A DNA stretch of 64,000 nucleotides from Morchella semilibera (Eukaryota; Ascomycota; Pezizomycetes; Pezizales; Morchellaceae): positions 310,001 through 374,000 of the forward strand of contig WBVU01000011.1 in the NCBI GenBank assembly GCA_009192285.1. Direction: 5' to 3'. The notes under the pieces are model-generated. The model was not told the DNA's origin. It made no database searches and worked only from the letters and a program-made list of their open reading frames with translations. Shown here piece after piece: positions 1 to 59,000 of the stretch; the first letter of the stretch is position 1, and every line of letters begins with the position of its first letter. The translations under genes and the position numbers were made by a program.

Positions 1-2544
1 GCAGCAGAAGCAGCAGCAGCAGAGTATGTACAAAACATCCCCTTCCACGTACCTTCTTTTTCCTTGCCGCCTACCAGCAACACACAGCGCGCACGACGAA
101 ACTGGGACGGGGAGGCCGACGGCCCAGAGACTAAAATCGCCCAGCAAAAGCTTGGGTGTGCGCTAGACAGGGACCCCTTGCTGTGGGGTTGATGTTGGTT
201 TTGACCTATTTTTTCTTTCTTTTTTTTCTTTTTTTTTTCTCTGCAGGGTTTGGGGGCATGTTGGTGGATATATGGAGAGAGGATTAGTATGTAATAAAGC
301 AGTAATCAGCTGCATGACTGCAAGAGATACTGGTAATATGTATGGAGATACATATGTAGTTAGATTCAATTGGTACATACATGTAACGTATGTATGCATT
401 GTGTGGCAGGAGTTATGGTAAACAGAGACAGAGGGGATGCCAGGAATGTGGTCAGTAAAGCAATGCAAGTTAGCAAAACGTGCGGCGTTAATAGGGCGCT
501 AAGCATCATGGGGTGTCACTCGGTCGTGATGTTCGGTCCGGCCGCGGGATGTGTTGAGTCACACTTAATATTCATAATTGATAAGTCGGTATGCACGAAC
601 TTTCAACGGCTTCGATGCTGCCAGATGGCTTTTCTTGATGGATGTGCGGGCCTATTGGATGCACTTCTCCCCAACCTGTGGTCACCTATGGTGAGTGAAG
701 CCGTTGTAGCCGAGTTGCGTGCGTATGTATGGTTGACTGGTGGTGATGAGACGGGGTTTTCTTTAATGAGGCACCTATGACGTATCCTAATGATGGGGTC
801 TAGGGCTTTGGCGGTCCCCATTGTTCCAGAGTGTGGATTTTTAATACACACTCAGTCGTTATCTAACTTATTGGCAAAAGACCTCAAGGTCGTATCGCGC
901 TTAACGGTTGTCGTTCTAATATACGTGTTTAATACTTGCTATATAGAACCATGTAGTGTTTGTGTCGTAGTAAATACTTATGGGGCGGGCACGTATATAC
1001 ATTGGTTTGTTTTAAACCCAAGTCCCGGCGGTCATGCGGAATACGGGAAGTTGTTAGCCTTGTACCTGGGCTATATCAACCGCGGGGGTGCAGTAAGTCT
1101 CTTATTTAATAATAACACTTTTTATAAAAGTATTCGTGCCCATTCTCAGTCAATTTTTGGCTTTACGAGCTCAGGACTCGAGATAGAAGCATGATATCTT
1201 TATAGAGTTGAGGGATATAGCCGTGCTTTAATCTCGATTATGAGATATAATCCGGTGCTTGAAATGGTCCTAATGTGGCCTGTCTCGTAGTGCAACGGTG
1301 CCACCGCTTAGTCTATGCTTGACTTTGGAGGCTCTTGCACTTTGTATAGATCCGCGGGATTCCGCCACCTTCACCTCTAGTAAATCCCGAACTATAAGGC
1401 TGACTGCGGAAGTCCCAAGGCAGGTAGCCCTTCGACGCGGGGTGAGCTCCGTTGTAGAAATAATACGTAGCCACTAAGTAGCCCCGATTGTTTATGGGGG
1501 ACTCCCCATGATAGCTGTTTTAATATCCTGACTGCAAGCTCAACAGCTGTTGGATCATTATTGTAGGACGGGTAGCGTAGCTAAATTTATTCTAGACCTA
1601 GCCTACACAGAGTAGCCTTTTAATGTCCGGGGGTAGCTAGGTACTGGGTGGGCGGCCTTCACATGATGATATAGTTATGGAGCCCCTTCTTGATTGCGAT
1701 AGTGCCTAACGACTTTATATTCCTCTGCTTCCCTCATAGCTTTTGGATTGGGCCTAATACAGGTTTCTGGGCCAGACACATAATCTGTCCAGAATCCTGA
1801 TACTGAACGAATGCCGCAATAAGCACACCATCTCGGAGGGACTCAATACAGAACCGGTTTAATGAGCCAGCGATTCTTCTACGGTTCTCTTCGTCTCGAT
1901 CACGCCATTAGGCCGCTCTAGAGAGCTCTATATTCCACTCTATTTCCGAAAAAAAAACCATTGGGATCGGGGGGAGGGCTTATAATTAGCTTAGCCTAAG
2001 GGCTGTAGTTCTCCGGTTCCGTGGGCTTTCTAGTGTACCGAAAATGGGTGTAGCTCCTAGCTATTGGTGGCTGTGCTACGGGCCGAGCACTCGGAATGCT
2101 GTACTACTACGTATACACGTTAGCACACTCCCAATATACCTGTGGATATCTACGTACATAACGGCTGAAATGTACCACTAAGTAACCATCATGGCTACGA
2201 GAACACTTTCCACAGGCCAGCAAGCGAGGACCCACAACCGGTACCTCCTTGGACGCCTCATCGACCAGTGTGGGTGTGCGCCAATATAGGTCTTGGCTCA
2301 CGGGGTATCACTCGTATACCGTGCCGGATAGGACTAAGAGCTTTTTATCGGTACCTTGAGCTTCCCAAGAGAACAGCAACGAGAGGGCTATGGAAAGCGG
2401 CTGACCTATAGCCCAAATAGGGTCCTGAAAGCAAGAAGATAGCTTGCGCACGGGAGCTTGGTACGGACTGCCCGCGGGAAAAGAACTAGAGGAGCCTATG
2501 CTGTGTTTAACACTCGAAACATTCGTGAAGACCCTAGCCCTGGC

Positions 2545-2667
2545 TCTGTTCGGTTGACGTTGAGTTGGTTGCAATCCATAGAAAAAACACCTCTGGAGGT
2601 GATTATTTTATTAGGCCCAATCCATAGATTGCAACCAATCTATGGATTTTTGTGTCAACCGAACAGA
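2545..2667. mobile_element. MITE-like inverted-repeat element with internal hairpin
   Basis: The element is bounded by perfect 14-bp terminal inverted repeats: TCTGTTCGGTTGAC at 2545-2558 and its reverse complement at 2654-2667. Just inside the right end is a perfect 13-bp stem with a 4-nt loop (arms 2619-2631 and 2636-2648, left arm AATCCATAGATTG). The left arm also contains a related TTGCAATCCATAG segment. There is no coding capacity in 123 bp. This architecture fits a non-autonomous DNA transposon. I could not see a clear target-site duplication, so the superfamily is left open. Confidence 0.6.
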
Positions 2668-2859
2668 CCCATAAGTTGGGTGTAGGGAGGGGATACCTGG
2701 GGGGCCTCCTGGAAGAGAGGTAAGTAGAAGAAGTAGGCGCGGACTACAAGGGAAGAGGAGAGAGGAAAGACTTCAAAAAAGGGCGGATACAATACCATCA
2801 TGTGCGCAGATGTTAGGGCTGATGACCTTGCGTTGGGGAGTAATGTGGGGTGTGGGGAT

Positions 2860-2993
2860 TACCGCAAATCGAAAAATTGGCTATCTCCGGCCAGGGATTA
2901 CCTCCTTCACGATTGGTTGAAGGGCGTAGATCAGGTCTGCTTATAGCAATTTTAATCTCATATGCATAGCCAATTTTTCGAGTAATGGCGGTA
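2860..2993. mobile_element. MITE-like element, Tc1/mariner-type ends with TA duplication
   Basis: Imperfect terminal inverted repeats face each other. The left end reads TA CCGCAAAT then CGAAAAATTGGCTAT. The right end, read on the other strand, is TA CCGCCATTACT then CGAAAAATTGGCTAT. The inner 15 bases match exactly. Both ends are flanked by TA (2860-2861 and 2992-2993), the target-site duplication typical of Tc1/mariner elements. The 130-bp body has no reading frame of note, so this would be a non-autonomous copy. The superfamily assignment is inference from TA and the short ends. Confidence 0.6.
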
Positions 2994-3981
2994 TATAGTA
3001 GTGGATTATCTACGTACTAGGACTTTCTTTAGGTAACACCTCGGAGCGTATGCCGGGCCCCTCCCCGTTTTATTTCTTTTGAAATAGCTTGCAATTGTAT
3101 TGCTGAGGATTGAGTAGAAGGCAGGGTTTAGTCCGGATCAGATCATCTTATATCTCCCAAACATAGGGATGAGATTAAAAGGGGCAAAGGGTTACCACTA
3201 TCATGCATTTAGAGGCTATGGATTAGTGGTTGTATGGGATGGGATGGGTATAAAATGGCCGTGCCCTATAGCCCTAGCCGCGCGTGGGCGCTTGGGTTTG
3301 ACCTCCTCACCTTGGTTGACTACATGTAAGTAACTCTTTCTCCTACTTTTTTTTCTTAAATCCAATTAAGTGTACATTTTGGACGGGGCCAGCTCATGGG
3401 TACATGTACAGTATACCCTAGGTCAGCTCAGCGATTTCGAACAAATATTCTAAGTATAACGTACATGTATGCAGGATACATACATGTAGCTAGATGGACT
3501 AAACAAACCAATCGATCAATAGATCAAGGTGTAGATCAGTTGAGTGATTCAACAATAACAATTAACAAAAACAAGATGCAAAGTGGTAGCCAATAGCCTA
3601 AGGGCTGCATGCAGTATGAAGTATAAATAGATAAATAAATGAGTGGCAGCTAAAATCGTCGATCGAGTGATAACTCATGCACCGCCACCATCACCCCCAT
3701 ATACTCATGTCGGGTCTCCTTACCCATTTCAAAACACACGTCAAATCTCCCCTACATTCGAGCCTACACACTCCATACCCCCAAACACTAAGCTAGCCCC
3801 TCCACCCACCCAAGTCCTTGGAGTCAGGCTGCTCGATCCTTTAAGATTAATTAGCCCCGCCTTATAAGAGCTCACCATCGCATCTAAACTACCACTATGA
3901 TGCCGGTCGTACCTACACCATCCGTGTTTAAAACCTCCCTTACGCCAAACATATCATACCCCCAAATATAAGATAGAGAAA

Positions 3982-4035
3982 AAATCGAAATGACCAATCC
4001 ATACACGTAGGGCTACAGAATGGTCATTTTGATTT
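3982..4035. repeat. 15-bp inverted repeat (potential hairpin)
   Basis: AAATCGAAATGACCA at 3982-3996 is matched in inverted orientation by TGGTCATTTTGATTT at 4021-4035, with a single mismatch and a 24-nt spacer. It may be a decayed MITE or a cruciform-forming site. No gene adjoins it. Confidence 0.5.
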
Positions 4036-4508
4036 CTCACTCTTCCGAAATCCTGAGGCACTGATAGGTTTACAAATTTGGGTGTGCTGGGTCTGATGGC
4101 GGATCCCAAAACCACACCCAAAACCACGGTTTTGGTAATGAAAACACATATATTGTATGTAAAAAAGATGTTTTTGTTCAGAAAACCACCTTAGATGTCC
4201 AAATAAATTCGTTTTTTGACCTGATCTAAGTAGGTTTATCGCGACCGGCGCCATACAAGCCCAGATATATAAACCACCAGCCACACCAACCTCTCCGCTG
4301 TCTCAAGACGCAATGCGGCTGCTCCTGCGCTCGTTCCGAGGCATGAGTCTCGATCTATGCGCAAAAGCCCGCCAGCAAATAACCTACGCAGCCAAATACA
4401 CCTCGTCCAAGAGCCCTTGCCGCCCACCATCTCTTTTCTGTCTACCGGCTGAGAGGCCACTAGTCCCCACACCATGCAGCGTTCGCGCAGGATCACCACT
4501 CATCACTC

Positions 4509-4529
4509 GGTCGGGTTTGAAACCCGACC
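4509..4529. repeat. near-perfect palindrome GGTCGGGTTT/AAACCCGACC
   Basis: A 10-bp inverted repeat has a single central base (GGTCGGGTTT at 4509-4518, AAACCCGACC at 4520-4529). It directly overlaps a TCACTCGG sequence at 4503-4510. It could be the terminus of a decayed transposon or a dimeric DNA-binding site. Confidence 0.45.
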
Positions 4530-12420: not shown

Positions 12421-12995
12421 AAAGGCCAGGTAGTTGTTTTAGCGGTATATGCTCTCTTTTCTAGTTTAATCCATGGTTTATTTTACTCTTTTCGGCGGTC
12501 TCTTATAGGCTGGCCACTTTTGTGTATCAATACTTAGGCAAGGTTGTGTGGGTTCCGGAAACTCATTGCTGGCGCGATGGAGGGGAGCCACCAAGGACCT
12601 TCGCTGCCTTAACTTAACGTAAGATATGGGATGTTTTGTGCCTATTAATAAAAGTAAATGATTTGGCGCTCCATGATTCGATCATTGGCCTTTCGAAGCG
12701 ACTCGCTAGCGTCATATATGATCACTCGGTGCATAGGGGCAGACTACAAGACTGATAAGGTTAGTTATTAATCAAGTAGTGTACCTCCTCGGTTAAGGAA
12801 TTCTTCTCTATAATCAGTTAAACCCTTTACATTAGGCGTAACTTTTACTGCGATCCTCATCTAGTTTCTTGGTTATGCACATGCGTAATAGCCACGAATC
12901 CTCGTGTAACATGGCATATTGAGAGGTGATGAGGGCCATCGTAACTTTGGGCGCGTAGAAAAACCTCTTCTCCTTACTAACTGATACTTGCAACA
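12421..12995. other. intergenic region between AIR1-like gene and MSH5
   Basis: This stretch holds the presumed 3' end of the AIR1-like gene and the promoter of MSH5. An exact CATR-N4-RTCACTCGG site lies at 12713-12729, 267 bp before the MSH5 start codon. No gene is seen. Confidence 0.6.
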
Positions 12996-15900
12996 ATGCC
13001 CCGAACTCGTCGAGCGTCTGTGGCATTCGCCTCTGAACCCCTCTTCCGCCCACCTTCTCGCTCTTCCTCTCAGACAACTCGAAGCTCCCTCACCGCCACT
13101 CCTGGTACCTCAAAATCACGTAAACTGAACCCATATAACAGGACTGTCGAAAGTCAAGATGAAGATGAAGATGAGGAAATCTCTGAGGAGGAGGAAGACG
13201 ACTCTGAGGATATCATCATGGCCGTTGATCGGAGGGGAAGAAAGATAGGGTGTGCATTTTACTCGATGGCAGAGCAGAGATTAAGTTTAATGGAGGATAT
13301 CGAGTTTCCTACTTCGGACTGCTTAGATGCTTGTGAGTGCTCTTGCGCGGGGTTGGATTGGCCTACTAATGTAGTTGCGTGGGGGGTAGTAAAATTCCAT
13401 ATAAAACCTACAGTCCTGTTACTGCCGTCAAGGTTTGATGAAACCATTGATAAATCGCTTAATCCTGATTCTAAAGGCAAATGATCCAATCTGCTTCTGT
13501 AGGTATGTTTGTGACTCTTGCTCACACGTTTACCAGATGAATTTGCGACGCCTTATCACATTTCCATCCGCCCTACTGCCGAGTTCTCCTATGACTCGGC
13601 AAGAAACAAACTCATCTCAACCCGTATTGGTGAATCCAACGGACCATCAATCACAATCCAGACTCCTGGCGACATGCATGACATATCCGGCGAGTCACGG
13701 AGACGTGGAAATCTACTGAGACTTGCAGGGTGGATCAACGTGGAAAGCAAGGTTACTGTAGGGTGTGCTGGTGCCGTATTGACGTATCTGCAGAGGAAGG
13801 CAAGTATTGACGGAGGTCCTGGAGATGTCGATGGAGGGGGAATATTAGTGGCAGAGATTGAGATGTGGAGTATGGCTGATGTTATGTATGTGCTAAGAGG
13901 GTGTGTGTTTGTCTGGTGAGAAAAAGTGACTGACGGGGAGCAGGTTTGTAAATGCAGATACGATATGCTCGCTGCAGATCTTTGAGGATGAGTCGCACCC
14001 GAATTTTCATATGCAAGGCCCCAAGGGCCGCGGTAAAGAAGGTCTATCTTTATTCGGAATTATGAATGGGACTAGATCTCCGCTTGGGCATGTTATGCTT
14101 AAACAATGGTTTCTGCGCCCAACCCTTTCGCTCTCAATACTGACCTCCCGTCATGATACACTGACCGCGTTCCTCAATCCTGCCAACTCTCATGTCCTCG
14201 CTACACTCGGGAAGTCACTGCGATATATCAAAAATATCCCAAAAGTCCTTTCAGGATTACGGCGAGGCTTAGGTAGTGGTGGCCGAGGGGGCGAATGGGT
14301 TTCGTTAGCAAAATTCTCGTTCTACGCACTGAGGATCAGGTCCTCTCTGCAAGAGATGAGTGGAGTTCGAGGGCTAGTGATCTATAAGAAACTGATGGAC
14401 ACAATTGATGTCAAGGCCATTCAGGCCGTGGGACAGCTTATCCACGACACAATAGACTTTGATGAGAGTGCACTGCAGCACAGGGTAGTCGTTATGAGGA
14501 ACGTAGATGATGAGCTAGACCGGATGAAGCAGATGTATAATGGCATGGATAGTATGCTCTCGCAGGTCGCTCGACAAGTCGCAGCAGACATACCGGCCGG
14601 TGTGGCGATCAACTTGAACGTTATTTATTTCCCGCAGCTCGGGTATCTGATCGTTGTACCCACACTCGAAGGTAGTAGCAATGATGGTGGAGAGGAGGAT
14701 GCAGTGGGGAGGCCTGTGTATGCGGGCCAAGACTGGGAATTTCAGTTCTGTACAGGAACGAGTTGGTATTACAAGAACCCGCAGATGAGAGAGATGGACG
14801 GGTACTTTGGGGATATGTACGGGCTTATCTGTGGTAAGTTTGTGTGGATGGATGGAACGAGTGATTACTAATGACGCAGTGAAGATAGGGAGATTGAGCT
14901 AGTGCATGAGCTGCAGGTAAGGGTGCTGAAGTATGATGAGATACTTATAGACTGTGCTATGATAATCGCGGAGCTTGATTGGTATGGTCTTGGGATCCTT
15001 TTTTCTTCTCTTCTTTTCACGATATCACAATTGGACTATAGCTAAGGGTTGTTAGTCTTCTGGCCCTGGCCCTGGCGGCGGAGAAATACAAGTACTCCCG
15101 GCCTATAATCACCGAGGAAAACATCATCAAGATTACTAAGGGCCGGTAAGCGAGTTCTTGTCTTCCTAGAAGACGCAGAAACTATCATTGACAATAACAG
15201 GCACCCGCTCCAAGAACTCTGCGTGTCCTCCTATGTGGAGAACGATACAAATATCCTTGGAGGTAAAGGTTCAGATGAAAAATTAAGTAGCATAGATATC
15301 GAAACTGCCCCAGACGCAAATGAGGCTAATCTGGCTACACCACCGATGGCGGTAAGAGGTGTTGAGAACGCCCCCACTGAGCCAAGTATGGTGCTTATCA
15401 CTGGGCCTAATTACTCCGGGAAAAGCATTTACTTAAAACAAGTCGCACTCATAGTTTATATGGCTCACATTGGATCGTTTGTTCCAGCCGAGAGTGCAGT
15501 GATAGGATTGACAGATAAAATACTTACCAGGATTCAAACCCGAGAGAGTGTTTCAAAAGTACAAAGTGCGTTTATGATAGACCTTCAACAGATCGCTATC
15601 AGCCTTAGGCTTGCCACACGTCAGTCTCTTCTAATAATCGACGAGTTCGGTAAGGGTACCGACTCAAGTGATGGTGCAGGGCTAGCCTGTGGTGTATTCG
15701 AACACCTCCTGAACCGCTGTGACGATAGGCCAAAGGTTTTGGCAGCTACTCATTACCATGAGATATTTGAAAACGGCTTCCTTACTGAGCACAAATATCT
15801 ACAATTTGCTCACATGAAAGTTCTCCTTGATCATGATGCAGAGCAAACAGAAGATCAAATCACGTATCTATACCGAATGGAGATCGGCCGGAGTACTAGT

Positions 15901-17960: not shown

Positions 17961-18994
17961 TTACTTATTCTTCCTTTCCTGATCCTTTCTCTTTTTCTTC
18001 TATTAGAAATAAGGAGTCCGGTCTAACTGGCTGAATTTGTGATCTTTTTCTTTTATTCCTTGTTTGAACCCCCCCCTTTTTTTTGCGCTGCTTTTTGCAG
18101 ATTGATGATATGATGAATGTGTTTTTATGAGAACATGGAAACTGGAGTTTTGCTTTTTATCTTTTTCCTCTTTTTTCTTTGCACGCAGTGATGGGGCGGA
18201 TAAAGTTTTTATATAGGATATCGCTACCATACTTAATACATACATTGTATTAAGGATTTTTGGGCGGTGTTTGTCTTTGCGTGTACCTAACTACATGTAA
18301 GTAGGTGGCGGCAAGCCTCCCAAACCCTAGCCTGACATTATGTGTGGAATATCCCGCCGGCTTTTAGACAGTACAAACCCACTTATATAGGAAAATTAGA
18401 AAGAGTTGAGATCTGACTACTTAGTACCGTATGATGGCACCTTGAAGATCATACCCTTTAATACCGTCATGGTTCTCTTCAAATGTTAAAAGTTATTGTT
18501 AACTCTCATATTCGGCGGGGGTTCTAGACTTCCTGCGAGGATTGTTATAGCATGATGACAGAAAGTCGGTCCCTTCGGCCTATTTTCTTCATGATGGGCG
18601 TTGTTCACATCATGGGCTATCACTCGGAATAACGTGTTTGGTGAATGACAAACTACTCGGGGTACCCTACTCTACCTTTTATAGGCGTTTCTCAATGCTT
18701 GTGTATGTCCACCTTTTTTTTACTTTCTCATCTTGTGTTTGTGTCAAACCTATTGCTCGAGAGGTGTGCATGGAAGTTTTGGCACTGTCGGTCTAGGTAT
18801 GGGTTGTAGAGTTTGATATAAAGTCAATAGATGTTTGCCAAAATAAGATATATAATCTGCCAACATAGAAAATAACCCAGAAATACAAATAGCTACACCA
18901 ATACGAAACAAAACAACTTGCCCCCAACCAAAAACCAACAAAATAAACAAAATGCTCTTCACCGGAGACAACCAAGAAAATGACAGATCATCAG
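17961..18994. other. convergent intergenic region
   Basis: Two genes end toward each other here. There are T-rich tracts near 17990-18180 and 18710-18720, one TACATGTA (18292) and an exact CATR-N4-RTCACTCGG site at 18611-18627. No gene is seen. Confidence 0.55.
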
Positions 18995-21546: not shown

Positions 21547-22914
21547 TGCAAGAGGGAATGTTAGGGATTTATATGTGAGAAGCCTAGAGCATTGAAAGCA
21601 GAGGTTGTGGGGATTATATGAGGAAGGGTTCTAATCATCTTTTTAAGGCCTCACTCAGATAGTGTTTCTTAGGCCTCCAATTACCGTAGATGCTCGAGGA
21701 ATTCGCTAGCGCCGTTTGCACCAAAAAGTACTCAAAGTGCCGTTTTTGGTACTCTATGTATGATATGCGGGTAGGTGATGTTTCACTCGCATTAGACCAA
21801 CCATCAATCCTGGATTACGGTGGCCTTACAAAAGGGCAAATACGTTTTTGGGGGTGCAGCACAGCGCAACACAACGGACCACCACCGCAACTATAAAGTA
21901 CATGTATGTAACTTATACTTTGAGCGCCTTATTGACACTGACTTAACTACACATGTTGAGTAATAATCAAGTAGTTTTTGTATCATCTGAATATGCCCTA
22001 ATTATCTGTAGTGAAAATCTTTTCTTAGAATGCAATATAGACCTCTTGATGTAACGCTTCGAATAAAGATACTACCACTATGACACTATGAGGGAGCCCA
22101 TATACAAGAATTTCCTTAATTCTCTTGTGGTTATGGAGTATATTTACATGAACGCCTGTCCACACTGGGGCTACTATCATATGCGATCATGACTCTTACT
22201 CGACAGCTTTTACCATCACTCATCACAATCACTCTTATTTACTATTAGCTAGGTTTGATTGTTTTGATTGTTTCAGTTGTAATTATAGGCTGCCGTAAGG
22301 GATCGTTTTGCTAGGCGGCAGACAGCATTTCTCAAAGTTGATGGTTGGCCTGAAATCTCTATCCCTATTTCATGCACCGCACTCCTAGATTGGATAACAG
22401 AATACGGTGGCCTAGCGCGCGTATGTTTGCTTGAAAAATTTCTCTCATGCGCGGCAAGGCTCGGATCGGCACTGGTTGATGCGTCCCCAACCTCTTTTTT
22501 TTTTTAAGCGCTGGTGATTTGGCAGTAGGCCATAATGCAGCTTACGAGGAGAAGGGGGGGGGCAGTTGTTACATTGCCTGGTATCTTACCTCTCTGAGTG
22601 ATGTCTTTTATTTTTAGTAGACTGGCTGCCTAAACTCCTGTATTTGCACAAACTGTTGGTACTCGGCTTTCCAGTAGTTTATTACGCCCCGGGGTTCTCT
22701 GGAGCGAGATTACATGTAGATTAGTTATCAAAAATACCGCGCAGACCGTGCGGAGTAGGTACATGTAGGCGAGTGATCTCATATGAATAACCGAACGACT
22801 GACGACGTAAATCCTCTTGGCACCAACTGGGGGTACTAGTCCACGTTAACCAATAGTATTACTACGCCCCCCTCCACATACAATCCCATTCATTCACTAA
22901 AGTGCCCTCCCGTG
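21547..22914. other. divergent intergenic region between dynamin-like and HAD genes
   Basis: This spacer carries TACATGTA at 21899, 22711 and 22760. A minus-strand CATR-N4-RTCACTCG site lies at 22769-22785, about 130 bp before the HAD gene start. A short inverted repeat (ACCAAAAA/TTTTTGGT) lies near 21719-21750, and TACGGTGGCCT occurs near both 21817 and 22404. No gene is supported. Confidence 0.5.
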
Positions 22915-23818: not shown

Positions 23819-25222
23819 CTTCGTGAAGACCAAGGTTTGCTTGCGAGGTGAAATCCTCTAACTTGCTGCCAAACCCCCCGGAGTCCATGTTTCGTAGCTA
23901 TGGCCCGGTAATCAATAAAATAGATTTTGCTTCAATAACATTCTATATAAGCTCATTAGTCCAGTATCGGCAAAAGAAAAAAAAAAGTCTAGTATCAGAT
24001 TTTTCTATATTCACCAATTTCTTGCATTATTAGTATCAACCCAATTGAGAAACCCACTAATATTAATACCCCTGCTACTAACCTAAGCCGTATGTTGATA
24101 ATGGCGGCCCGTACTCATCCCCTCCGGTGTACTTAGCATATAGAGTAGTGTGTAGGCTCAACGTTGTTTAATATCTAAGCGCGCTATTAGACTTCAATAT
24201 GACATATTCCTAGTGCTTAAGGCCTACATGTAGTTAACCCTCTGACAGCCATTCTTCAAAAATGTCAGTTGACTGCATGTACCCAGAGTGTCGGAAAGTG
24301 ATGCACATTCGGTGGTTTCATGGCCCCACGGAAATTAATTTCTACACAAGGCTATTTCAAGGTAAATATGAGTATGTTCTTCATCAAGTATATGCTTAGT
24401 GCTTAGGTATGGTAGAGAGGTTCTGTACAATTGTATTGTATATTGTGATAAAGCATTTGGGCGTTGTCTGTGTAGTCAAACATGCATCACTTTCCGTAGG
24501 AACGACATGTAAACATAGGGACAAGTCTATGCCAAGCCCGCTACACTTCCGGCCTCACCTCATCTTCTCTTCCCCTCCTCGCTCCCAATCTTCTCTTCCC
24601 TTCTATGCTCGGGCTCGTAATTCTCTATACAAGCAACTATAGGCTCCCATCATCGGATCTGGGCTAACAAACGCCTTTTGGTTGAGGGAAGTCTCAAACC
24701 CATTAACACCTAGGAGTCTCTGATTGTTCCGAAGAATTTAGGGGGTCGAAGAGCGACTAGAGAGGCTCCAGGATTGGTGAGCGGCTCTTTGGACGCTATT
24801 CAGGGAAATACATGAGATATTCAACGGGCAAGTTGTGAGTTAATCCTGGTCTCTCTCGTGCTGTGTTCTGTGGGATCATCATACATGTCCATCTCCCCTA
24901 ACTTTGGTGTTAAAGGAACTCAATAGAGGGTGCTCTTAAGGGCTTTATCAGCCGTCACGCTCCGGAACGCATGAATTATAATCCCACTCTCAGGCTACTC
25001 TCAGGCTACTCCACAATTACAGAAACCAGCAGACAGATGCATTTTAGTCACAGTATATCACTCGGGTACCTTGATTTTTTCCTTTTGTTTAATTATACTT
25101 CATACATGCATGACACCCGTAGGTTATGGCAACTGATTAGAGATTTAGATTCAACTAAAGATCTATCATTTCTAGTACATTCATATGACCAACGCCCCCC
25201 CTGCCCCACAGCCCCCACACCC
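23819..25222. other. convergent intergenic region
   Basis: AT-rich spacer between the 3' ends of the HAD and aldo/keto reductase genes. One TACATGTA lies at 24225, and an 11-bp tandem duplication (CTCTCAGGCTA-type) lies near 24989-25010. A TATCACTCGG sequence is present at 25056-25065 but its CAT half has a mismatch. No gene is seen. Confidence 0.55.
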
Positions 25223-26466: not shown

Positions 26467-26573
26467 TTTGAACTGGTGTTGATAAAGGGTAGTAGGGTAC
26501 TGATGTGATAGTAGTATAGTAATTTAATGTGAGTTTGTTTGATATTCCGTCTCACTGCGCTCCCTTCGCCTCC

Positions 26574-26580
26574 CTTTATA
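26574..26580 (-). promoter_or_regulatory. TATA-like element upstream of aldo/keto reductase
   Basis: TATAAAG on the minus strand lies about 110 bp upstream of the aldo/keto reductase start codon, a plausible distance for a core promoter. Confidence 0.35.
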
Positions 26581-36047: not shown

Positions 36048-39000
36048 AAGGTACCTCATGACAAGTCTCAAACGTCATATGGCTCCGTGCAAATCTCACG
36101 ATCCTCGTTGCGCGTGTGCTGACTCGGAGTTGCATCTATGTTCGTTGTGTTCCTGCTCTAGCTGGAGCATTGTTGGCGAGAAAATTTCTTCCAGGCGCCA
36201 AGGCCTAACTATGGCCCAGCATCCACTCTTCTCACTTTTTTTTTCACGATGCTCAGAAGGTGCTTTCGATCAGAGGTTGATTTGTTTGCTTTTTTTTCAA
36301 ATAAAAAAAAAAAGGCGGTCACGCATACCGGTTGCTAAGGCAATTTTCTTGTTGTGCCAGTGAAGTAGCAGTACTTGCATGTATGTACCTTAGCGGCCGA
36401 GGGGAGGAAAGGCCAGTGAACTTCCTAACTTTAAGACAGTAAAGGGTTGACGCTTATATGACGCCAACCTGGTCTTGGAGCGTTGTGAATTTGCTTTTTG
36501 CATTGCAGTTTCGCCTTCCCAGGTTTGGTTCAGATTCTGAGGCAGAAAAGGGGGGGGTATGTATGCTCCCCCAGATTTCATATAACCTTTTTCCCTTAAG
36601 CCGCAGAAGCGCACGGTGCCTTGGTTATGGGAGAAGGGAGTTTGAGATTTGCAGTGTCAAGTGATCTGCCCGAGCAAGACGAGCGCATCATGTAACCAGG
36701 GGTGTGGTTGAGCGTTGTGTCGTCGGCCTTGGGCACCGAGCTTCCTCAAGCTGTCCATATTGCCGAAACCCACGATTGAGGTGAGGAGGGGGCTATTCTC
36801 GGCACTCTCGGCCAACCGTTCCAAGCAACTCGCACAGACGCCACTTTCCACCAGCGTTCTTCGCGTTGGGCTGCCGCTAGAGGGCAAAGAGCAGCATGTG
36901 CGGTCTTGGGAAGCCACGAGGGCTGTTTCTCAGGCTTCATCTACAGGCTACAGCCGTTCACAGGGTTTTACTCATAGTTGAGGCGCTGCTACTTTACAGA
37001 GAGATTCGCCAGAACCAGTGAACGGCTATACTCTACTTGAAGATGTTTGCGGGGGAGGAAGAGAAAAAAAAAAGCCAGGGATTCAGACTGCAAAATTGTA
37101 GGCTATGCTCTAGTACACGTGTGTCCGCCGTGAATTAGAATTGGAATGGCGAGATCTTGGGGATGTACCTGCAGCTTGGGGCCAACGCCCAGCGGCGAGG
37201 CGGCGAGCTTGCTTCCACCGTAGACCGAACCCACATCATGTACCTACTGTATGTACTCAACCCAGATGGTGGACTGAGCTTAGGCTGGGACAGTTTTTGT
37301 GGGGATCATTTGAACCTATTGTTAGAAAGAAGAAGTTAGATGCCCTGTTTAGAACGCATGGAAAAAAATTTTCCTCATCGCTTATGTGTTTCTTTTTTCC
37401 CAATTTTGTTTTTCCCTCTGATTCTGTCTGCCTCGAGCATCCTTCCTTCCATTCGACTCAGGCTGTGGGTACATGTATGTATGTAGGGTTAATCTCTCGT
37501 ACATACGTTTGATGACGTCTCAGAGGGAGATCAGATCGAGTTTGGACGACAACAAGAAGAAACGTTAACGTTGTGATCCTCTGATCAATTCCCCCTCCAG
37601 CCTCGATTTAGTTTTTTTTTTTCAACAGGTAACGCCACACCTGGACATGCCCGGGCGGAATAACGTATTCTTGTGCAAGAAAGAAATAATTCTTTGACAG
37701 CACCCACACACCAGGGGCAAACAAGCAAGCATGCCACTCTAGAGTAGTTCAGTATGTCTACGGCAAGCATGCCATAACCCAAAACTCCATTTCCCCTACA
37801 TACATACATAGAATAGAGTACCTACATACCCTCCTACCTAGAGTAAATTCCCTTGTAACCAACAAAGGTCAGATGGTCCAACCCGTGCTCCACAATTACC
37901 TAACAGCCATACCCCCAAACGGAAAGGCGCCAGTCTCCCATGCCCCCATCTGGTTGGTCGCGCAGTTTCGCTCTCGTAATGAAAGCGCCTGGAACAGGAA
38001 TGGAGAGCCACTGCTACCTGTAGCACTCGCCTCGCTGCTAAAAAAAATTTCACTCGTCATCATTTCTCACGATATTTTTTTTTTCCCACTCAACCTTTCG
38101 CAGGGCAGAAAGAAGCAATATAACCGCGAGGCCCTGTGCTCATCCCCTATCCGCAGCCCTAACCGAACCAGCGACAGAAGGTGCTGCGGTAGCATGTATG
38201 TAGTGGATGCAAATCGTTGTCCAGGATGGAGCTTTTTTTTCCCTCCTATGCCGTGAGCTCTGGGTTGTTTGAACATTGACCTGCAGTTGCAGTAGTAGTA
38301 GTAGTAGGAGCAGTAGGACTCATAGTCAATCATAGTTGCTCACTCAGTTTTCCAGTCAATGAAAAGTTTGTGTGTGTGGTGGCCATCAATGGGCATGAAC
38401 AAAGCTGACCCATTCACTCACTCGTTCACTCTGTCCTATTGTTCTCTGCATCCGGTTGATAAACTGTGATTTGATTTATTGACCAAAACCAGGAGGTGGC
38501 CGTGCCATGGATTTTATTGATTGATGGGATATGATGGTATTATGGTGTGTGTGTGCGTATGTACTGGATCACACATAGAGTACCGACATGTAGGTATTCT
38601 ACTGGGTATGGCAAGGAATGGTACAATAACAAATTTAATGGTGAAATTAGGTCATGATGGTCCAAGTGCGGTAACAATCCCCTCGTGATGGTTGTGGTGG
38701 TGGTGGTGGTGGTGGACTGGCTAATATTCAATCAACTACCAAGATGGTGGTGCATGCGTTACAACTTACGAGGAGTCAGTGATCAGTTACACTACGAGTC
38801 TACTGGGGCGTTAGCCAAGGGTTGCATGGGTTGGGAGTGCATGGATGCATGGCAATGACCGCCAACGCCCCAAAATTTATTATTTTTGCCTTAACAAGTC
38901 CCACGATCTTCAGGGCACTGATTTATTTTCCTGAAATATAAAGGCTCTTTGGCTTCCCACTAGAATTGACCTCCCATCCACACACACTCACACACAGCAA

Positions 39001-44970: not shown

Positions 44971-47282
44971 TTAGGGTTCCCGAGTGACCGGTTTCTGGTC
45001 CGTGTGGCATATGCGAGTGGATTGTTGAATTTTCTGGCACTTGAGAGGAGTCTGGGGGAGTTTGGATTTGTTGGGTATTTAGAAAGGGGGGGAAAAAAAC
45101 CGTGAATGAATCCCGAAGTTACATGGTTGGTTAGACTGACATTGAGTGATACTACACGATGTGAACGGTGAAAAAAACTAATAAATATTACCCTAACAGT
45201 AGCAGAATTGATTGTTTACTCAACGGGCATGATAATCCAACAACATAATAGTCTAGCACGAGGCACAAATCAAGCGCAGGCACAGGTACAAGGATCCGTG
45301 GGGGAAGCTTTATCAGATACCCTCCGATAAATCTAGATCGGATCATGCAAGCCATGACATCTCAAGTGTGTTAATCCGCCCATCTCCCGTCGGCCTACAT
45401 ATTTTGTATCAAATACTTTTTGACAAACTTCGGGTGCCTCCGAAAAAAGGAAAGAATGGGCAGCGTGGGGGGGATACGTCACACTTTATAAACCTTCTCG
45501 ATCCCATCCCAAAGTTCGATTTCTGCTTAAAAAACAAGCATCTTCACTGACAAAGCCAATCATCTAGCCCCGCAATGATTAACAACAGGGGCTAGCTGGT
45601 GGGTTAATTATAAGCTTATTTCCACGTATGCAGGGGGCACAGCCGCTACGAAGGAAACAATACGCAGCTCCTGCAGGAAAATTGTGCAGCCAAAGAAATT
45701 TTTCGATATCTTGATATCAGCATGGTATCGGCGATCATTGATCCTGTTGCATTGAGTGATAGTTGGTGACTCGTGAGTGGAAACAAGTATTCGGTTGTGG
45801 CCCGCTCGGGCTTAGTGATGCGTGCAGGGGTGCAAATACCTGCCAAGATATTTCGAGGAAAGCCCAATCGGAGATGAGTTCAAGACTCTGCGCCTCGATT
45901 TTGGTCTCAACTGCGCATGTCATGGCTGAGTTTTAAGCTCAAGAAACTAGTGGTGGATCCCCTGAGGCTCGAGCTCAGAGACGTCAGATTTCACAGACCG
46001 ACTCAGTGGTCGCTCGTAGAATATTGCGTTGTCTCAATTGAACACAGAAAGTTCGAGAACTACACAGCCTACCTGTTGAATTAAGGTTGTAAGAGTCAGC
46101 CGTAAGAGTCACCTACAGGTCGATTGGTAGTTACGGGCATCTTGCTCTATGTTGTCCTGTGACCGGCAAAAATTGGAATTGCAGTCTCACTTGGACATAG
46201 GTCACAGAAAAGGCTATGCCTGCGAGCGAGGTTTTGAAACATGAGGAAAAATTAGAGGCGCAGCATCTACATTAAAGTGCCACGAGAGCCGAGTGAGGTC
46301 ATCTCCTAACCCCTATTGCCTGTCTCCACCTCCTGGGTTAAGGGTTCATAAAGAACATCATCTACCTGCAGCAAATCAAGGGCAACATCTATCTACAGTT
46401 ACCTAAGGCGTCTTTCAATATTAATGATCTATTGGAAATAGATTCAAATAAAAGATTATTGGTTGAGTAAAACCTATGCCTGGGTGGTAAAATAACATGG
46501 AAAAATTCTTTCTAGGTTTGGGGCCTGGTTTGCCGGGTTTAGGTTCAATTGCAATTACATTGTTAGAAAGAGACTAAAATCGATATATGTACTAAGTAAA
46601 GAGTGTCCAGAAAATCATGCCGTATAACTGTAACCGGATTTTTGTTAATATTTGGTGCCATCCAATTTATCTATAGTGAGATCGAATAATGATAGTGCAG
46701 GTCTATAAAACATTCTATCATGTCACATGAGGGTTAAAATATTATTTGCATAATTTATCACTCGGTCGACGGTATTGCAAAGTAGAGAATTTATTAATCG
46801 TATGCAAGTAGAGAGTTGGGTATCCCATATTTGTCGATCTTGGTTTTTTTTCGTGGGGCGGAACCCATTGGTAGATTAGTTTAAAAACAGTACCGAGACT
46901 CACTGCCTCTTAGGCCCATGACTAAACTTGGTGTGTACTCGCTGGTTAAGACCTTTTACAAACATTCAGGGGATATTTCGGGGCGTGGCAAATCCGTGAA
47001 AACAGTGGAAGGGATAAGAAAAATAGGAACCTTGTCCAAAATTCCTGGTCTTCAAATTACGGAAAGAGAACCTACATAGGCCATCCTTGGGTCTCAAGTT
47101 CTGATGGGGTGGGCCGCTGGGAACCCAATACGAGGGGATCTTCTTGGTCTGTGCATATCTCAGTATAACTTCATGTTTAGCGCTTGCTAGTAGCTGTGAC
47201 CGTCAGAAGAATGCACTAGTGGGTCAACTAGCGCCTATAATCAAGCTAGTATACAGGGTTGCCTTTTCAGCAACCTCAACAA

Positions 47283-47364
47283 GCGCCGTTGGTGCAGGGG
47301 TAGCATAGTTGCCTTCCATTATCAATGTTAGCAACTGGGAAGGGTTCGAGTCCCTTACGGCGCA
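47283..47364 (+). tRNA. tRNA-Gly (anticodon UCC), intron-containing
   Basis: A full cloverleaf can be drawn: acceptor GCGCCGT paired with ACGGCGC plus discriminator A, D-arm GTGCAGGGGTAGCAT, anticodon stem GTTGC/GCAAC, and T-arm AAGGGTTCGAGTCCCTT with a perfect B box. The anticodon loop reads C-T-TCC-A and is enlarged by about 11 nt, placed at the standard position after base 37, i.e. a nuclear tRNA intron. An identical 82-nt copy lies in inverse orientation at 55543-55624. Confidence 0.9.
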
Positions 47365-50300
47365 TCCTTGCAGCTGCCCATTATTCTCTACTTCGTTGAA
47401 CGAGTTTATGGTCAGCAATCACTTTTAGCTTTCATTCAAGCTGTGTCCGTTTGTTTCCGCAGATGATCCTTTTAGGAATCCAGAAGGTCCTGAGAGCTCA
47501 ACAAGAAATCAATATTCAATTACATGTGAGTGTGTTTTGACTGTAAAGTAGCTAGCAACAGTATATAGAGAATAGTTCAAACTAAATTAGGAATTCCCTA
47601 CCCTTTCCAGGGGGGCCTGGGAGGCAGAAGTCAAAAAGGGAATTTTCGATAGGGTCACACTATGCAGATACATACCAAACAACATTAAAGTGTACCAAAA
47701 ACCAACGTTTACAGTCTCAACACAGCAGAAGATTTAGTTAGTACCTAATTCCAAATTTCCAGAGCCGCTGTCTTAGACATTTGATAAAGAGTTATGAAAA
47801 CAGGCCAGCCAGCCATACAAAGAACACGTTCCGGTTCACAACTAATATAAAAGCCCGAAACCAAAACCACAACGAATTAGTCCACAGGCTATAGACTGCA
47901 GGCAGACCTTAGATATATACCTACCTATATACCGCTTCGAACTAAGTGAGGTCATGTTTTTTCCTCGTTACTCCCCTTTGCCGAACCGCTAATTATATAG
48001 GTACATCCAGAGAAATAATATATAAGGCATAACCCAACATATGGGCGGAGAGACATGTACAAACCCATGACGAATCGACGACACAAAATCAGTTAGCCGT
48101 ACGACCTTGCTACAGAGCTGTTAACGCATAGTGGTAGTCATGGAGCAAAGACATAAAATGGCTCCTCTGTTGATCCGATTGTGAGGGCTGGCTCTTGCAG
48201 TGAATTTACAACAAGGGACATGACCGATATATCTATGTAATGATTACTAGGGGAGAATCAAACAAACAAAGGCTACTTGATGTCATTCAATTGGCCGTAG
48301 CTGACTATGTATTTACATGTGTACGAGCAAGAGAAATCGGTTAGTATTGGATGGCTGCATGCACCACCGTACAGTCACCTAAAAATTCCATTTCGTCTAT
48401 CCCACGTAGGTTAATCAGGTATTTGACACAGACATAACCAACACCCAGAACCTGGTCCTTTACAGAACCCAACCCCCCAACCACTGTCACGTCATTTAGA
48501 TTGAGGTGAAGTTTGTATATAAGAATTTATACCAAAGAAAGCCCATGGCAGACACCACCTATAGATCAAAAGTGGTGGATCTATATCAATTCTGGTTATG
48601 AGTATAAGAAGGCTAGTTAAAACCTGATTTGCTGTTCGATTGTAATCAGGATCGGCCCTTGCCCAAGATCTTGGATACATGTACTCTCAGCCGTGATACG
48701 TATGTTACACTGTGCTGCCTCTATGTGGATTACTGAACAAACACCCGCCTCGCTATATATTACCCACATTATATTCCGATCTAACCAATCCCATGGGTAC
48801 TAGATCTGCGCCGCGTTACCGATTACGCATTCCCTGTAGACCACTTAGATTTATCGATTGATTATTTATCTATATCACGCATATATACATGTATGCATGC
48901 GCGTATAAAGACTCACAGCTCCCCAATAACAAGAAAATTTGGGGCACCCCGGAAAATGGGTTATAATGTTAGTTAAAATCCATTGGCTACATAAGCGTGG
49001 GCCCTCCAGCGCATCCACTGCGAATAGTGAGAGACACAAGGCATGATCGCTCTGTGCGAGTTCGTCAATCTTATTCGCCCATGTATCTACAAATGGTACG
49101 GGATGGCTTTATATGTAGGATGGGGGGGGGGGGTTCAGTCTCGTTCTTTCCGTCTCTTCCTGATCGATAGTCGCCAGGTGCTATCCCATAAGCTCTGGAT
49201 ATAGGTTGATCATGGTAGAACCATCATAATCCAGCAAGCAATCATTTGATCACCGTAGTTAATTAGCAACTAATATCTCTCATCGGCGGGGATACATATG
49301 TAATGGTTGGTACAGGGGGTTCAATGGATCCTGGATATACCTATGGTAAGTCGAGCATTAAGCGGGCCTTGTGAAAAGCCTGAATAGGTGCGCATGCAGA
49401 TTCAGTAGATTATGGGTGATCCTTATAAACCGCTCGCTTAATAACAAATACAATATGGTCAATTGGAAATGACGACTTCATTTTCCAGCTGGTTTGCGTT
49501 AATTGCACCAAGTATCGAGTGATAATCAATGATCCTTATTCTGGAAGTTGCACCTCCGGAGCCTTCTCAACCTACATGTAAATCACCGGTAAAACAGTAA
49601 AGGTTAATGAGTTGATGGGGCCTATTTGTTTTAGGTACTAGGTAGGAGCTTATGAAATGCCTGGTGAGGTAGTATGGTCTAAAACCTGCGTGAAACCAGA
49701 GATAAAGGCCTTGAAGTATAAATAAAGTGTATAAACTAGAAAGGTAGGGTGGGTCGCTTAAGTATTCCATATCGATGTTTGGCCAATCAACTAGAGCTGT
49801 GCTTGTACTTACTCGAGGCACCCCGAGTACATCCATGTATATGCATGACCTATTCATGGCAACTCATCAGCAAGTGAACAAAAGATATTAGCGATTGAAC
49901 TACAGCTGCAAATTGTAGTTTGTAAGATGGGAGAGGCTGCCTTTAAGCAAAATCGGGGCTTGAAACAACGAGCCGAGGTTAAACCTGGATTATGTACGAG
50001 TATACGCAGAGCCAGGCTGTGTAGGTACTCATAAGTTCATGACGTTTCCGAACCCCCGACCACTATTACATGCCATACAAAAAAGGTAGCCTTGGCGGGT
50101 TTTTTTCTGTGTATGCAATAGCAGCTGGGTCCGAAAAGGCTATGAAATTGCGAGTATGTACCTACATGGAGCCGCCCGGGGAATATATGATCGGGGCGCG
50201 GGGTGATCCGGGATAGATACTTAATCTGCCTAGATCTAGATGTGTCCCTGAATGAGGTTCCCCATCCACCGAAGCATGGAAAGTGGGGATTAAGACACCC

Positions 50301-51416: not shown

Positions 51417-51424
51417 ATAAAAAC
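51417..51424 (+). promoter_or_regulatory. TATA box of the carboxylesterase gene
   Basis: TATAAAAA lies 60 bp upstream of the start codon and is followed by a C/A-rich leader (CATCTCCAGTCTTCACAACTC). The position implies a short 5' leader. Confidence 0.5.
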
Positions 51425-51483
51425 CCCACAAGATCCTCCCTTTTTTCACACTACCAAACCATCTCCAGTCTTCACAACTCAGG

Positions 51484-53661: not shown

Positions 53662-54298
53662 GCAAAGGGGGCTTTCAAAGAATTTTCTATGTCTGTTATG
53701 AGAATGATTGTTATTTATCCAAAGAAATAAATTGAACATGATGTTAATGACCTAGTTGTGCATCTTCATATAAAATTCATGTCACATTGATCTTAGTTTG
53801 TTGGCTGGCTGTGTTCCTTTGGAGGAAAAGAGGGGGCGGGTGTATCATGTGATATCACTCGGTATGCGAAAAAACGGCGGGGGAGATGCATTTTTTTTTG
53901 TTTACATCATTAATTGTATCCAGCCCGGAGGCTATGACAATCGGGGGAGATGCATTCACATTATGTTGACCCTCTCCTCCCCTCCAGTTCGACATTGAGA
54001 AACCAATACCGAGAAAGTAATATGATTTATCATTTCTGTTGAGTAGTTGGTGATTTGGGTTCTTAGTCAACCGTATAATCGCCTGATGAGGTATAATCCG
54101 TATGTTTGCTATTCCAACCCACAAAAAATCGAGTTGTGGAGGTGTCGGCTGCATACTACGGGTTGAGTTTTTTTTTCCCAGCACTGAAGAAAAAAGTGAA
54201 AAGAAAGAAAAGGGAATTACAGTAAATCTATTTACAAAGCACCGGTACAACCCAAAGGAAACTTTTTTTCCATCTAATTATAACTAGCCAAGGGGTAT
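53662..54298. other. convergent intergenic region
   Basis: Two 3' ends face each other. An exact CATR-N4-RTCACTCGG site lies at 53846-53862, and GGGGGAGATGCATT-like sequence occurs twice (about 53880 and 53944). No gene is seen. Confidence 0.6.
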
Positions 54299-55078: not shown

Positions 55079-56083
55079 GGTGATGTGGGATTGGGGTTGG
55101 GGTTGGGGTTTAAAGGTGGGTGTGCTGAGAGGTTGTGGGTTGCTAGTTCTGTACCTCTTGGAGGTGGAGGCTCTGGAGCTTAGTTCCACTTTTTTTTTTT
55201 TCGAGGTTGGTCCAGGTTACCCTGAAATGGCTTCATACATGATCACTCGGCCAGCGCAGGTCCAAATCGGGTTTTCTTATATAAAGGGTGTAAAAAAGAC
55301 TAGTAAGACTACCTCGATAATTGACCAATCAGCATGATTAATCCACTTAAGATCTGAATTCATTAAGATGATTGAGTAATACCTCCTGAAGTTTCAAAAA
55401 CGCCCTCCTTTTGTCGCGGCCGAACGAGCTAGCAGGGGGTGCACTTAGCCGTCGATTAGTAAAGATGTAAACTCACGGGTAAATCTTTCAAAAGAAAAGA
55501 CCATCTCCTTCAACCGAAACAGTCAAAACACAGACCACGTAATGCGCCGTAAGGGACTCGAACCCTTCCCAGTTGCTAACATTGATAATGGAAGGCAACT
55601 ATGCTACCCCTGCACCAACGGCGCTTAAAGCTTTGATAAAATTTAAGGGATGTATTGTAGTGGTATCACGCTAGTGATAATGATCCTAGTCCTTGCATTA
55701 GTGCGGAATAGCGCTGAATACATGTACTAAACGCACATCACCAGGCACAAAAAAGGTGGCTACATGTAGATCTGATAATAAAGCTTCATGTGCATGTAAG
55801 TTTGAACTCCCAAACGTCAAAACCGTCCTTATAAAATTCAACCTAAAGAAGATTATCCTTGTAAGTACTTTTTAGCGTTCACCAAACCAGTCATCAAGTA
55901 GTAAGACGTCGATCAGAACCTCTAAAGGCAAATAACACTCTACGGGAGCCATTGTCCCCAGATACCTATTCCTACGCCCATAAAAATAACAACCCAAACA
56001 CCCATGCATTCATCATACCTCATAGACCCTATTAAACGTATACAAAGACGGTATAGAAAAATTCATACAAATAAGAAAGAAAT
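55079..56083. other. spacer between UTP11 and MRC1 with a tRNA gene
   Basis: This 1-kb stretch contains the UTP11 promoter side (CATR-N4-RTCACTCGG at 55234-55250), a tRNA-Gly gene at 55543-55624, and TACATGTA at 55729 and 55761. No protein gene is seen. Confidence 0.6.
55543..55624 (-). tRNA. tRNA-Gly (anticodon UCC), intron-containing, second copy
   Basis: It reads, on the minus strand, identically over all 82 nt to the tRNA at 47283-47364, including the roughly 11-nt intron after anticodon UCC. The discriminator A is at 55543. Flanks are unrelated beyond a few bases, so the identity is confined to the gene itself. Confidence 0.9.
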
Positions 56084-59000
56084 TCAACTAAAGCTACCTT
56101 TCGCCAAAACACCCAATACACTCTGCCTCTTCAATCCCTCCTTCTTCCTCTCAATCTTTTTCTTTGCCTCTCTCTCGTGTACAACTTTACTCCTGAGCTG
56201 CTCTCTAGTGTGGAAGTTGATTGAAGAGCTTGCCTTGCCACCCATCTTCACACCGGCACCCTCGCTCTGTTGACCGAGGGACCTTTCAGTCCCCGCAGAA
56301 GACTCTGAAAGACTACTTGAGGTTGTACGCCGAAGAAGAGTTGGTACTTTGAAGGCGGAGGAACTGCTAGAGGCTTGAAATGCAAGCTTGGTGGTATTGC
56401 TTGTGGCGCTACTGGAGCGCATGACAGCGACACGGTCGATGACGGTGCAGATACGTTCCCGTCGGAGAGCAGCAGTTGTGTCTTCCTCTTCATCGTTATC
56501 CGAGAAGTCAATTTGGGAGTCATTTTCCTCGACGAGGAAGGATAATTGCTACGAGGGAAGTCAGTCATGATCTGTCACTCGGCCATAAACAAAGGAGGGG
56601 TAAATCACCTCTCGGATTTGGGCCAGTGATGAGACCTTAGTTTTGGCGGGCCTTCTGCTTTGTGGTATTGAAAATTGTGCGACCCCCTCACTAGCCTCTC
56701 TGCTGGGATCCTTACTCCCTTCACCAAGCTGTTCATCCCCTCCCATCGGGGCCGGACTCGCCTCCTCACTTCCCCCAACTGTCTGATTTTGTGAGACACA
56801 GTCCGTCTGCGATACCATGCCCAGCTCGATAAACAAATCCTCCTCCCCTCTATCCAAGAAGTCCATCTCTTCATCCCTATCACGATCCTCAATTGCCGCT
56901 AAGAACGCCGCTCTCTTAGGGTTAGCAGCGATCCTTTCGATCTTATCATCCTTGAGAAGCTCTTTCCTCATCTTCGCCATCTGCCTTCGCTTTGCGGCCC
57001 TACGCCGTGCCTCTGCGTCATCTTCGTCTTCAGAGTCATCGAGGTCGAAATTGGCACCGCGCTTCTTACGTAGGAACCCGGATTGCATGTCTTTGAGCAA
57101 CTTGGTAACGTCCTTGGCGTCTTGTGCCATTTCACGCTCGGCGTAGAAGGCGGCCATGGCATTCTCATCAACAGTCTCAGCGTTGGTGTCGTCAACCATG
57201 TCTTCCATCTCGCTGTCATGGCCGTCGTCGGCTTCGTCGTCGGAGGCGCCACCAATGCCGGCGTATTCATCCTCCGACTCTTCTGCTTGCTCTTGGACCA
57301 TCCCTTTGGCCTCACTCTTGGATTTATCAAAGTCAGTTGGTTGCTTTAGTTTCTTCGTCTTCTCGCTCTGCTTCTTTGACGACTTCTTCATCAACTCAAA
57401 GACATTGGCAATATCCACCAGCTCTTCCTCCTCCTCTTCGGCAGAGTCCAACACTCGTTCCTCGTCTTCCTCTACTTCTTCGTCAGAGAAACCCATCCTC
57501 CCCCTTACCAGCCGCCCCCTCTTCTTTCTCTGTACACCTAATTGTTCATCTAATACCTGTGTCGGGAGGGTACCAGGTACTTCTGGCTCCGGTGTAAACC
57601 TCGGGGGTGCCGGAGTGTTCGTAACCGCAAAGCCCTGATCTTGTGTCGGGTCTGGCATATCCTCTTCGTCCGGCTCATATTGCAGCAATACCTTTGGTAG
57701 TGGCTGTGAGTCTGGCTCTACAGGCCACTTCTGACTTTGTGAGTAGTCCAGCCTGAGCCTTGCACTCTCATCTTGACTCTGGCTCTGGCTTTGTGTTCCG
57801 CCGCCAAAGTTGAGCACCTGAGTGTTAGGCATCACCTCATCCACATCGCGCCGGAGAATATCGATACGTTCTTCGGGGTTGATGGCCTGGGAAGTAGCAA
57901 CCTGCACGCCCTCAGGGTTCCCCATAGTACTTTCGAAAAGCTGGGTCATCCCAATCCCCATCATCATCGGTGGCTGGGCGTTAGGTTTGCGGAAGATGGA
58001 GGGAATCTTTGATTCAGCTGGTTTAGGAGCCGGGGCGGGAGCGGAAGTCTCCTCGTCTTCATCGTCGGAGACAACTCGCATCTTCTTGCGTTGCTGTTTC
58101 TTCTTTTTCTTGAGGGGTGCGAACTCACCATTATCGCTGTCGTCGGAGGCTTCATCGTCAATATAGGCCGACGGCATTTCAGAGAGGCGTGGTGTTGTAT
58201 TTTCGGGAGGACGCATAGAGGATAAACTAAAAACGGGGGTCCTATTCGGGTCCTCGAGTTCCTCATCCTCTTTCTCCTCGTCCGAGAAATCGTTGGCATC
58301 GGGTTTCTCGCCCTCTTCTGCATCTGCGTCCTCCATCTCCTCTTCACCACCAACATCCTCATCAGACCCTGACAAGTACTCAAAGATTGGGTCTTCTTCA
58401 GGACCACCCGCCCAATCCTCATCTTGCTCGTCATCATCATCATCGTTCTCTAGCCCTTTCTCTAGTTTCTCCTGCCTCTTCTCGGCCCTCTTGATCTTGA
58501 GTGCCTCCAGCCTAGCTTTCTCTAGGAGATCTTCCACCTCAGCCTTCTCCTTCTCCCTCTCCTCCGCGGTAGGAACAACAATTCCCTTCGCTCTTAGTTC
58601 CTGAATATGTTCCTCTCGCTCCTGCACTGCTTGCTGCCGCCCCTTCTTTACCAGCTCCATCTGCAGCTCTTTAGCACTCAACTGCCCTGCCTTCTTAACC
58701 CGCGGTGGCGATGACCGCCGCACTTTCCGCAGCTCCTGAATCATCTTCTGGCGCTCAGTGAACGCGGCAAAAGACCGGCCTTGCGCCGTGGAAACTACTC
58801 GGTCTGGTAGGATCTCAAGGTCTGAATCAGAGTCATCGGCGGCAGTAGTAGGGCGGGATGGGAGGATTACACGGACGGGCGGAAGGGAAAGTCGTTTTTT
58901 AGTGTCAGGGGGAGGCGCTTTGCCTTTTCCCTTGTCAAGGCGAGGTGGACTAAAGACTATTTCTTTACCCTTACCTTTGTCGAGGAGGGACGGGCTGGAG

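Follow-up and report, generated by a model that had tools for sequence, protein, structure and literature searches.

The window

The window analyzed here is a stretch of 64,000 nucleotides from Morchella semilibera (contig WBVU01000011.1, positions 310,001 to 374,000 of the forward strand), and our subject is a dispersed bipartite motif that an earlier note on the window's sequence had described as CATR-N4-RTCACTCGG. As shown in Table 1, copies lie upstream of genes, in convergent spacers and in introns. The neighboring gene labels Utp11, MRC1, MutS domain V and Aldo_ket_red are supported by Pfam, while the gene labeled HAD gave no Pfam match in the one exon scanned. All eight exact plus-strand matches and all three one-mismatch minus-strand copies listed in the note were recovered at their coordinates, a fourth one-mismatch copy was found at 25049-25065, and the relaxed copies placed near 2299 and 49514 proved to be real sites by weight matrix. 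The note had expected less than one match by chance, and dinucleotide shuffling gives 0.32 (maximum of 100 shuffles, 2). Its placement of copies upstream of the MSH5-like, HAD, AKR and UTP11 genes holds with new gene models, as does its placement of copies inside two named convergent spacers (17961-18994 and 53662-54298) and the MRC1 intron.

Table 1. Copies of the motif in the window, with their surroundings and the means by which each was found.
Position	Strand	Copy	Found by
506..523	+	Exact match to the pattern of the earlier note	Pattern scan, matrix
2298..2315	+	Ends in CGT	Matrix
3663..3680	-	Left half GCAT, ends in CGA	Pattern scan, matrix
4493..4510	+	TCAC-N5-ATCACTCGG	Matrix
12712..12729	+	207 bp upstream of MSH5-like ATG	Pattern scan, matrix
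14857..14874	-	Within predicted 336-bp intron of MSH5-like gene	Matrix, gene model
18610..18627	+	Within convergent spacer 17961-18994	Pattern scan, matrix
22769..22786	-	361 bp upstream of the gene labeled HAD in the earlier note	Pattern scan, matrix
25048..25065	+	TCAC-N5-ATCACTCGG, within convergent spacer 23819-25222	Pattern scan, matrix
26798..26815	+	104 bp upstream of AKR ATG, ends in CGC	Matrix
26998..27015	+	304 bp upstream of AKR ATG	Pattern scan, matrix
31406..31423	-	Ends in CGT	Pattern scan, matrix
38330..38347	+	Weaker copy, score 18.9	Matrix
45752..45769	-	Weaker copy, score 19.7	Matrix
46748..46765	+	Left half GCAT	Pattern scan, matrix
49515..49532	-	Ends in CGA	Matrix
53845..53862	+	Within convergent spacer 53662-54298	Pattern scan, matrix
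55233..55250	+	173 bp upstream of UTP11 ATG	Pattern scan, matrix, Pfam
56565..56582	+	Within 60-bp MRC1 intron (56549-56608)	Pattern scan, matrix, Pfam, gene model

Form and spacing of the motif

Genome-wide counts were made on 56,756,124 bases (56.76 Mb) in 23 contigs, some of them near-duplicate, with the reversed pattern as control. Positions and flanks were analyzed in a 264-kb sample consisting of the window and C1:1430001-1630000, the latter a 200-kb piece picked for its richness in sites of the form given in the earlier note. A first weight matrix refined on this sample found 95 sites scoring above 14, compared to 5 in one shuffle. A 24-column matrix found 91 sites at a cut of 15 (0.6 per shuffle, ten shuffles) and 93 at a cut of 13, of which 19 are in the window.

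The earlier pattern itself has 1,660 exact matches in the genome (873 + 787) against 1 for its reverse, in the count that the note had named as the test able to refute it. By weight matrix, the true motif is the 18-base (R)TCAY-N5-RTCACTCG, with the refined consensus rTCAYRRnntRTCACTCGgt. The core of the original description stands; the R after CAT and the final G of the earlier pattern are preferences only, and the T preceding CAY belongs to the motif. Both halves have the same RTCAY preferences, and the motif is therefore a direct repeat at a pitch of 10 bp, one helical turn, in which the right half is extended by CTCG. The strict form counted, TCAY-N5-RTCACTCG, occurs 7,438 times (reversed control, 16), nearly equally on the two strands (3,758 and 3,680) and at a density of about one per 7.6 kb. 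RTCACTCGG alone has 3,584 copies (control 448) and TCAY-N5-RTCACTCGG has 2,476 (control 0), meaning that 2,476 of the 7,438 strict sites end in G; the share is higher in the 264-kb sample (31 of 52 sites), probably because the C1 piece is rich in sites of the earlier form.

Spacing between the halves is rigid. Shortening the spacer to 4 leaves 84 copies genome-wide (control 22) and lengthening it to 6 leaves 61 (control 16), a loss of about 99% of sites for a change of one base. The 264-kb sample has 78 RTCACTCG cores; in 52 of them TCAY stands at exactly -9 (0.6 expected per offset), in one at -10 and in none at -11, -8 or -7. The matrix holds 20.5 bits of information, and about 13.9 bits would be enough to locate 7,438 sites. 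When 8-mers in noncoding sample DNA were ranked by over-representation, CGAGTGAT came directly behind simple repeats and TACATGTA. The palindrome TACATGTA reached 184 strand-counts compared to 9.8 in shuffles (window and C1:1430001-1630000, pieces L009-L028), an excess that may come from tetranucleotide repeats or from another dispersed motif.

The contig pairs C9/C10, C12/C13 and C21/C22 have matching places at near-equal coordinates, and some chromosomes may be present in the assembly as two nearly identical copies. Distinct motif sites are therefore fewer than the raw counts; 9 of the 84 spacer-4 matches look like contig duplicates. The 39.9 kb of C9 compared with C10 (window positions 1-39900) is 100% identical, and these 0 differences ruled out the pair as diverged homologues for haplotype footprinting.

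Flanks, pairs and clusters

In the weight matrix, the columns immediately beyond the motif carry information close to background. Surrounding sequence was compared all against all over ±150 bp around the 93 sites, and 28 matching pairs were found. Among the 25 of these pairs that were listed, 11 are neighboring sites with overlapping windows, five come from sites clustered at C1:1438-1442 kb, and three represent one repeat family, whose members are weaker sites at 13390, 20631 and 30918 of the C1 sample sharing about 224-227 bp at 92-100% identity. The other six are short (29-73 bp at 78-93%), and all involve a double site at 100485/100512. No flank block common to most of the 93 sites was seen among these 25 pairs. 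The unrelated flanks described in the earlier note are thus confirmed for most sites, with few repeat or cluster exceptions.

Same-direction RTCACTCG cores lie 1-30 bases apart in 246 pairs genome-wide (control 2), and facing cores occur at 76 places (control 0), indicating that sites of the same kind cluster. Paired cores of either arrangement are present on at least 15 of the 23 contigs. Among the 98 of 246 same-direction pairs listed, at least 22 are 18 bp and at least 8 are 19 bp apart, so sites can lie end to end; none of the 98 are at 11 or 13-17 bp, which is partly forced by sequence overlap. Six copies in the same direction, including one whose left half is imperfect, lie within 4 kb at C1:1438214-1442216 (L009, L010); their flanks are partly similar, and the region has no predicted gene. 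In an alignment of eight sites selected for their match, the six of this cluster and two nearby, all keep ATCACTCGG and the flanks differ.

Two 10-kb pieces, L034 and L035, are poor in sites, with no strict site and one weaker site in L034. Both hold long open frames, some of them gene-like; one in L034 looks transposase-like, and L035 also holds diverged repeats. Their TpA/ApT ratios are 0.91 and 0.90, compared to 0.87 and 0.92 elsewhere. The idea that site-poor stretches are dead repeats was dropped, as these dinucleotide ratios are ordinary and no clear picture emerged.

Position relative to genes

Gene models were produced by a simple home-trained gene finder, which predicted 47 genes in the 264-kb sample and may have missed some. 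For position tests, the 93 sites scoring above 13 were reduced to 91 (above 15), then to 83 by leaving out eight that belong to the local cluster or the repeat family (a ninth had fallen under the cut), and to 77 by merging sites less than 60 bp apart. None of these 77 sites falls in predicted coding sequence (CDS), where 18.0 are expected (p=2.1e-9); among the 93 unfiltered sites, one with a score of 14.4 lies in a coding exon. The 77 sites are in intergenic DNA (65, 51.7 expected), introns (3, 2.3 expected) and at sequence ends (9, 4.9 expected). Of the 65 intergenic sites, 6 are over 2 kb away from the nearest gene edge, compared to 20.6 expected (p=2.6e-5), and 33 of the 45 intergenic gaps hold at least one site, compared to 27.9 at random (p=0.021). 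The sites in the sample are tied to gene neighborhoods without a specific promoter link. The earlier note had proposed checking position against start sites and convergent ends, and this check returned no significant preference for promoters or convergent gaps in the sample. Of the 20 loci in the C1 sample, the 8 with ARAGORN calls hold 11 Rfam transfer RNAs (tRNAs), and by inspection six of these have a matrix site no more than 600 bp away.

Other observations

In the window, ARAGORN calls two tRNA-Trp genes, at 47283-47364 and 55543-55624, for which the Rfam gathering score was not reached. The sole 5.8S ribosomal RNA match among 39 of 1,209 candidates scored, at L029:1501-1672, has 39.5 bits against a cut-off of 42; intact ribosomal DNA may be absent from the assembly. 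A run of 3,496 N at L012:2306-5801 (C1:1462306-1465801) is possibly an assembly gap.

Interpretation

To our knowledge, little is known of the factors that open chromatin and keep genes apart in filamentous fungi. We propose, with a probability of about 0.65, that every copy of the motif is a putative site for a single DNA-binding protein with a long footprint, which would act across the genome and belong to the general regulatory or boundary type. A single such protein, which the earlier note had offered as one of two options, is preferred because of the rigid spacing, the excess information and, in the 264-kb sample, the absence from CDS and the spread over all kinds of intergenic gap; the mostly unrelated flanks in that sample and same-kind clustering are also consistent with it. 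That a protein binds the motif is what we infer from these numbers rather than something the numbers themselves show. Two equivalent DNA-reading modules of the protein would contact the RTCAY half-sites on the same helix face, one turn apart, and the right module would additionally read CTCG. The bound protein may keep nucleosomes off and may mark the borders of neighboring transcription units (promoters, convergent ends and terminators), rather than serve one regulon.

Several observations weigh against this proposal. The choice of the C1 piece inflates local site density. Neither convergent gaps (14 of 65 sites, 10.5 expected) nor divergent gaps (13 of 65, 15.7 expected) differ significantly from expectation, and the same is true of tandem gaps (38 of 65, 38.7 expected). 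The strongest position signal, 500-1000 bp past the stop codon (18 of 65 compared to 6.2 expected, p=2.5e-5), is one of 19 distance bins and depends on the home-trained gene finder, whose models may lack some genes. A dip in GC content around the sites was not found in the 264-kb sample.

An unlikely though serious alternative is an ordinary transcription factor that activates or represses a large regulon at promoters, such as a regulator of stress responses or development. Some sites lie 100-400 bp upstream of ATGs, as in the MSH5-like, AKR and UTP11 genes, and the bin 250-500 bp upstream of the ATG holds 8 of 65 sites compared to 4.1 expected (p=0.068). However, this promoter preference is not significant, convergent gaps and downstream regions are at least equally occupied, and 7,438 strict sites would exceed a normal regulon. 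The information in the motif is also above need, and information beyond need is unusual for regulon factors. Site number and the lack of promoter preference would point to a general or boundary role over a regulon.

We consider it improbable that the motif is a chromosome-maintenance element, such as a directionally read origin-recognition, replication-fork-barrier or loop-anchor site. The motif is polar, cores are paired on many contigs, and among the 100 sites of the earlier form listed on C1, close neighbors tend to have the same orientation (38 runs, p=0.013; p=0.044 for sites over 3 kb apart). This correlation is lost among sites kept more than 10 kb apart (p=0.27), and long orientation domains were therefore rejected; a strict site every 7.6 kb or so would also be dense for origins. 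An action of the motif in RNA, as a terminator, processing or decay signal, would fit the excess downstream of stop codons, but it is very unlikely given that the motif occurs in both orientations relative to genes and both upstream and downstream of them, that the genome strand counts are nearly equal, and that Rfam has no match in the window. The earlier note had also raised a transposon end. An origin of the copies from a short transposon or a dispersed repeat, as its ends or remnants, would fit the three-copy family, the partly similar cluster flanks and the six short matches, but this reading is largely refuted: most flanks are unrelated and near background in information, no boundary shared by most copies was seen among the listed pairs, and the CDS absence and rigid internal spacing also speak against it.

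With its length, rigidity and abundance, the motif could serve directly as bait for the proposed long-footprint protein, and its copies show where to search for it.

Comparison with known factors

No description of the motif was matched among the openly licensed titles and opening parts of abstracts that were listed, which for one piece of the motif covered 30 of 185 papers, and it may be known outside these. A query for CGAGTGA with MEME and fungus, as far as the openly licensed papers covered by it extend, returned a polymerase chain reaction primer as its sole match (PMC4046813). In a plasmid collection, nothing matched 38 bases taken from the window, a result of little weight. At least 22 zf-C2H2 matches are present in the genome, with no way to single out one as owner of the motif.

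The earlier note had suggested an Abf1- or Reb1-like factor; the motif itself does not match the site of either. Abf1 of budding yeasts, a general regulatory factor that separates neighboring genes, recognizes RTCAYTNNNNACG, a site of unlike halves that also takes the RTCAYT-N4-ACG form. The motif described here resembles it in having an RTCAY half-site and in being long and bipartite, but differs in that its halves repeat directly at a 10-bp pitch, with CTCG after the second. The two Abf1 forms are not enriched in the 264-kb sample (8 compared to 5.8 and 18 compared to 16.6 in shuffles), and the Pfam profile BAF1_ABF1 gave 0 matches in the genome, where control profiles were equally silent.

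Reb1, Cbf1 and Rap1 are genome-wide intergenic factors that open chromatin or act as roadblocks, and the Reb1 core is TTACCCG. The likeness to these factors is one of function only, a comparison of how they work, as their sites are absent from the motif. In the same sample the Reb1 site is not enriched (24 compared to 25.8 in shuffles), the Cbf1 site occurs 30 times compared to 23.8, and the Rap1 site once compared to 0.2. The word ARCCCTAA, which we take to be telobox- or Tbf1-like, is found at about twice its frequency in shuffles (47 compared to 20.7, window and C1 sample). Abf1 and Reb1 are described as holding regulatory regions nucleosome-free (PMC12305957). Like general regulatory or boundary sites, the copies reported here number in the thousands genome-wide, and within the 264-kb sample they are intergenic and avoid CDS.

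CTCF, an insulator protein of animals, has a long, information-rich and polar motif with thousands of copies, and the motif in M. semilibera is likewise long, information-rich, polar and present in thousands of copies. The CTCF core CCASYAGRKGGC has 0 matches in 264 kb compared to 0.5 in shuffles, and CTCF is absent in yeasts according to a Penicillium oxalicum Hi-C paper (PMC9241887). Tentatively, the putative protein could be a lineage-own fungal architectural or insulator factor that would read two RTCAY half-sites one turn apart, mark most transcription-unit borders, and resemble CTCF in site number, motif length and polarity.

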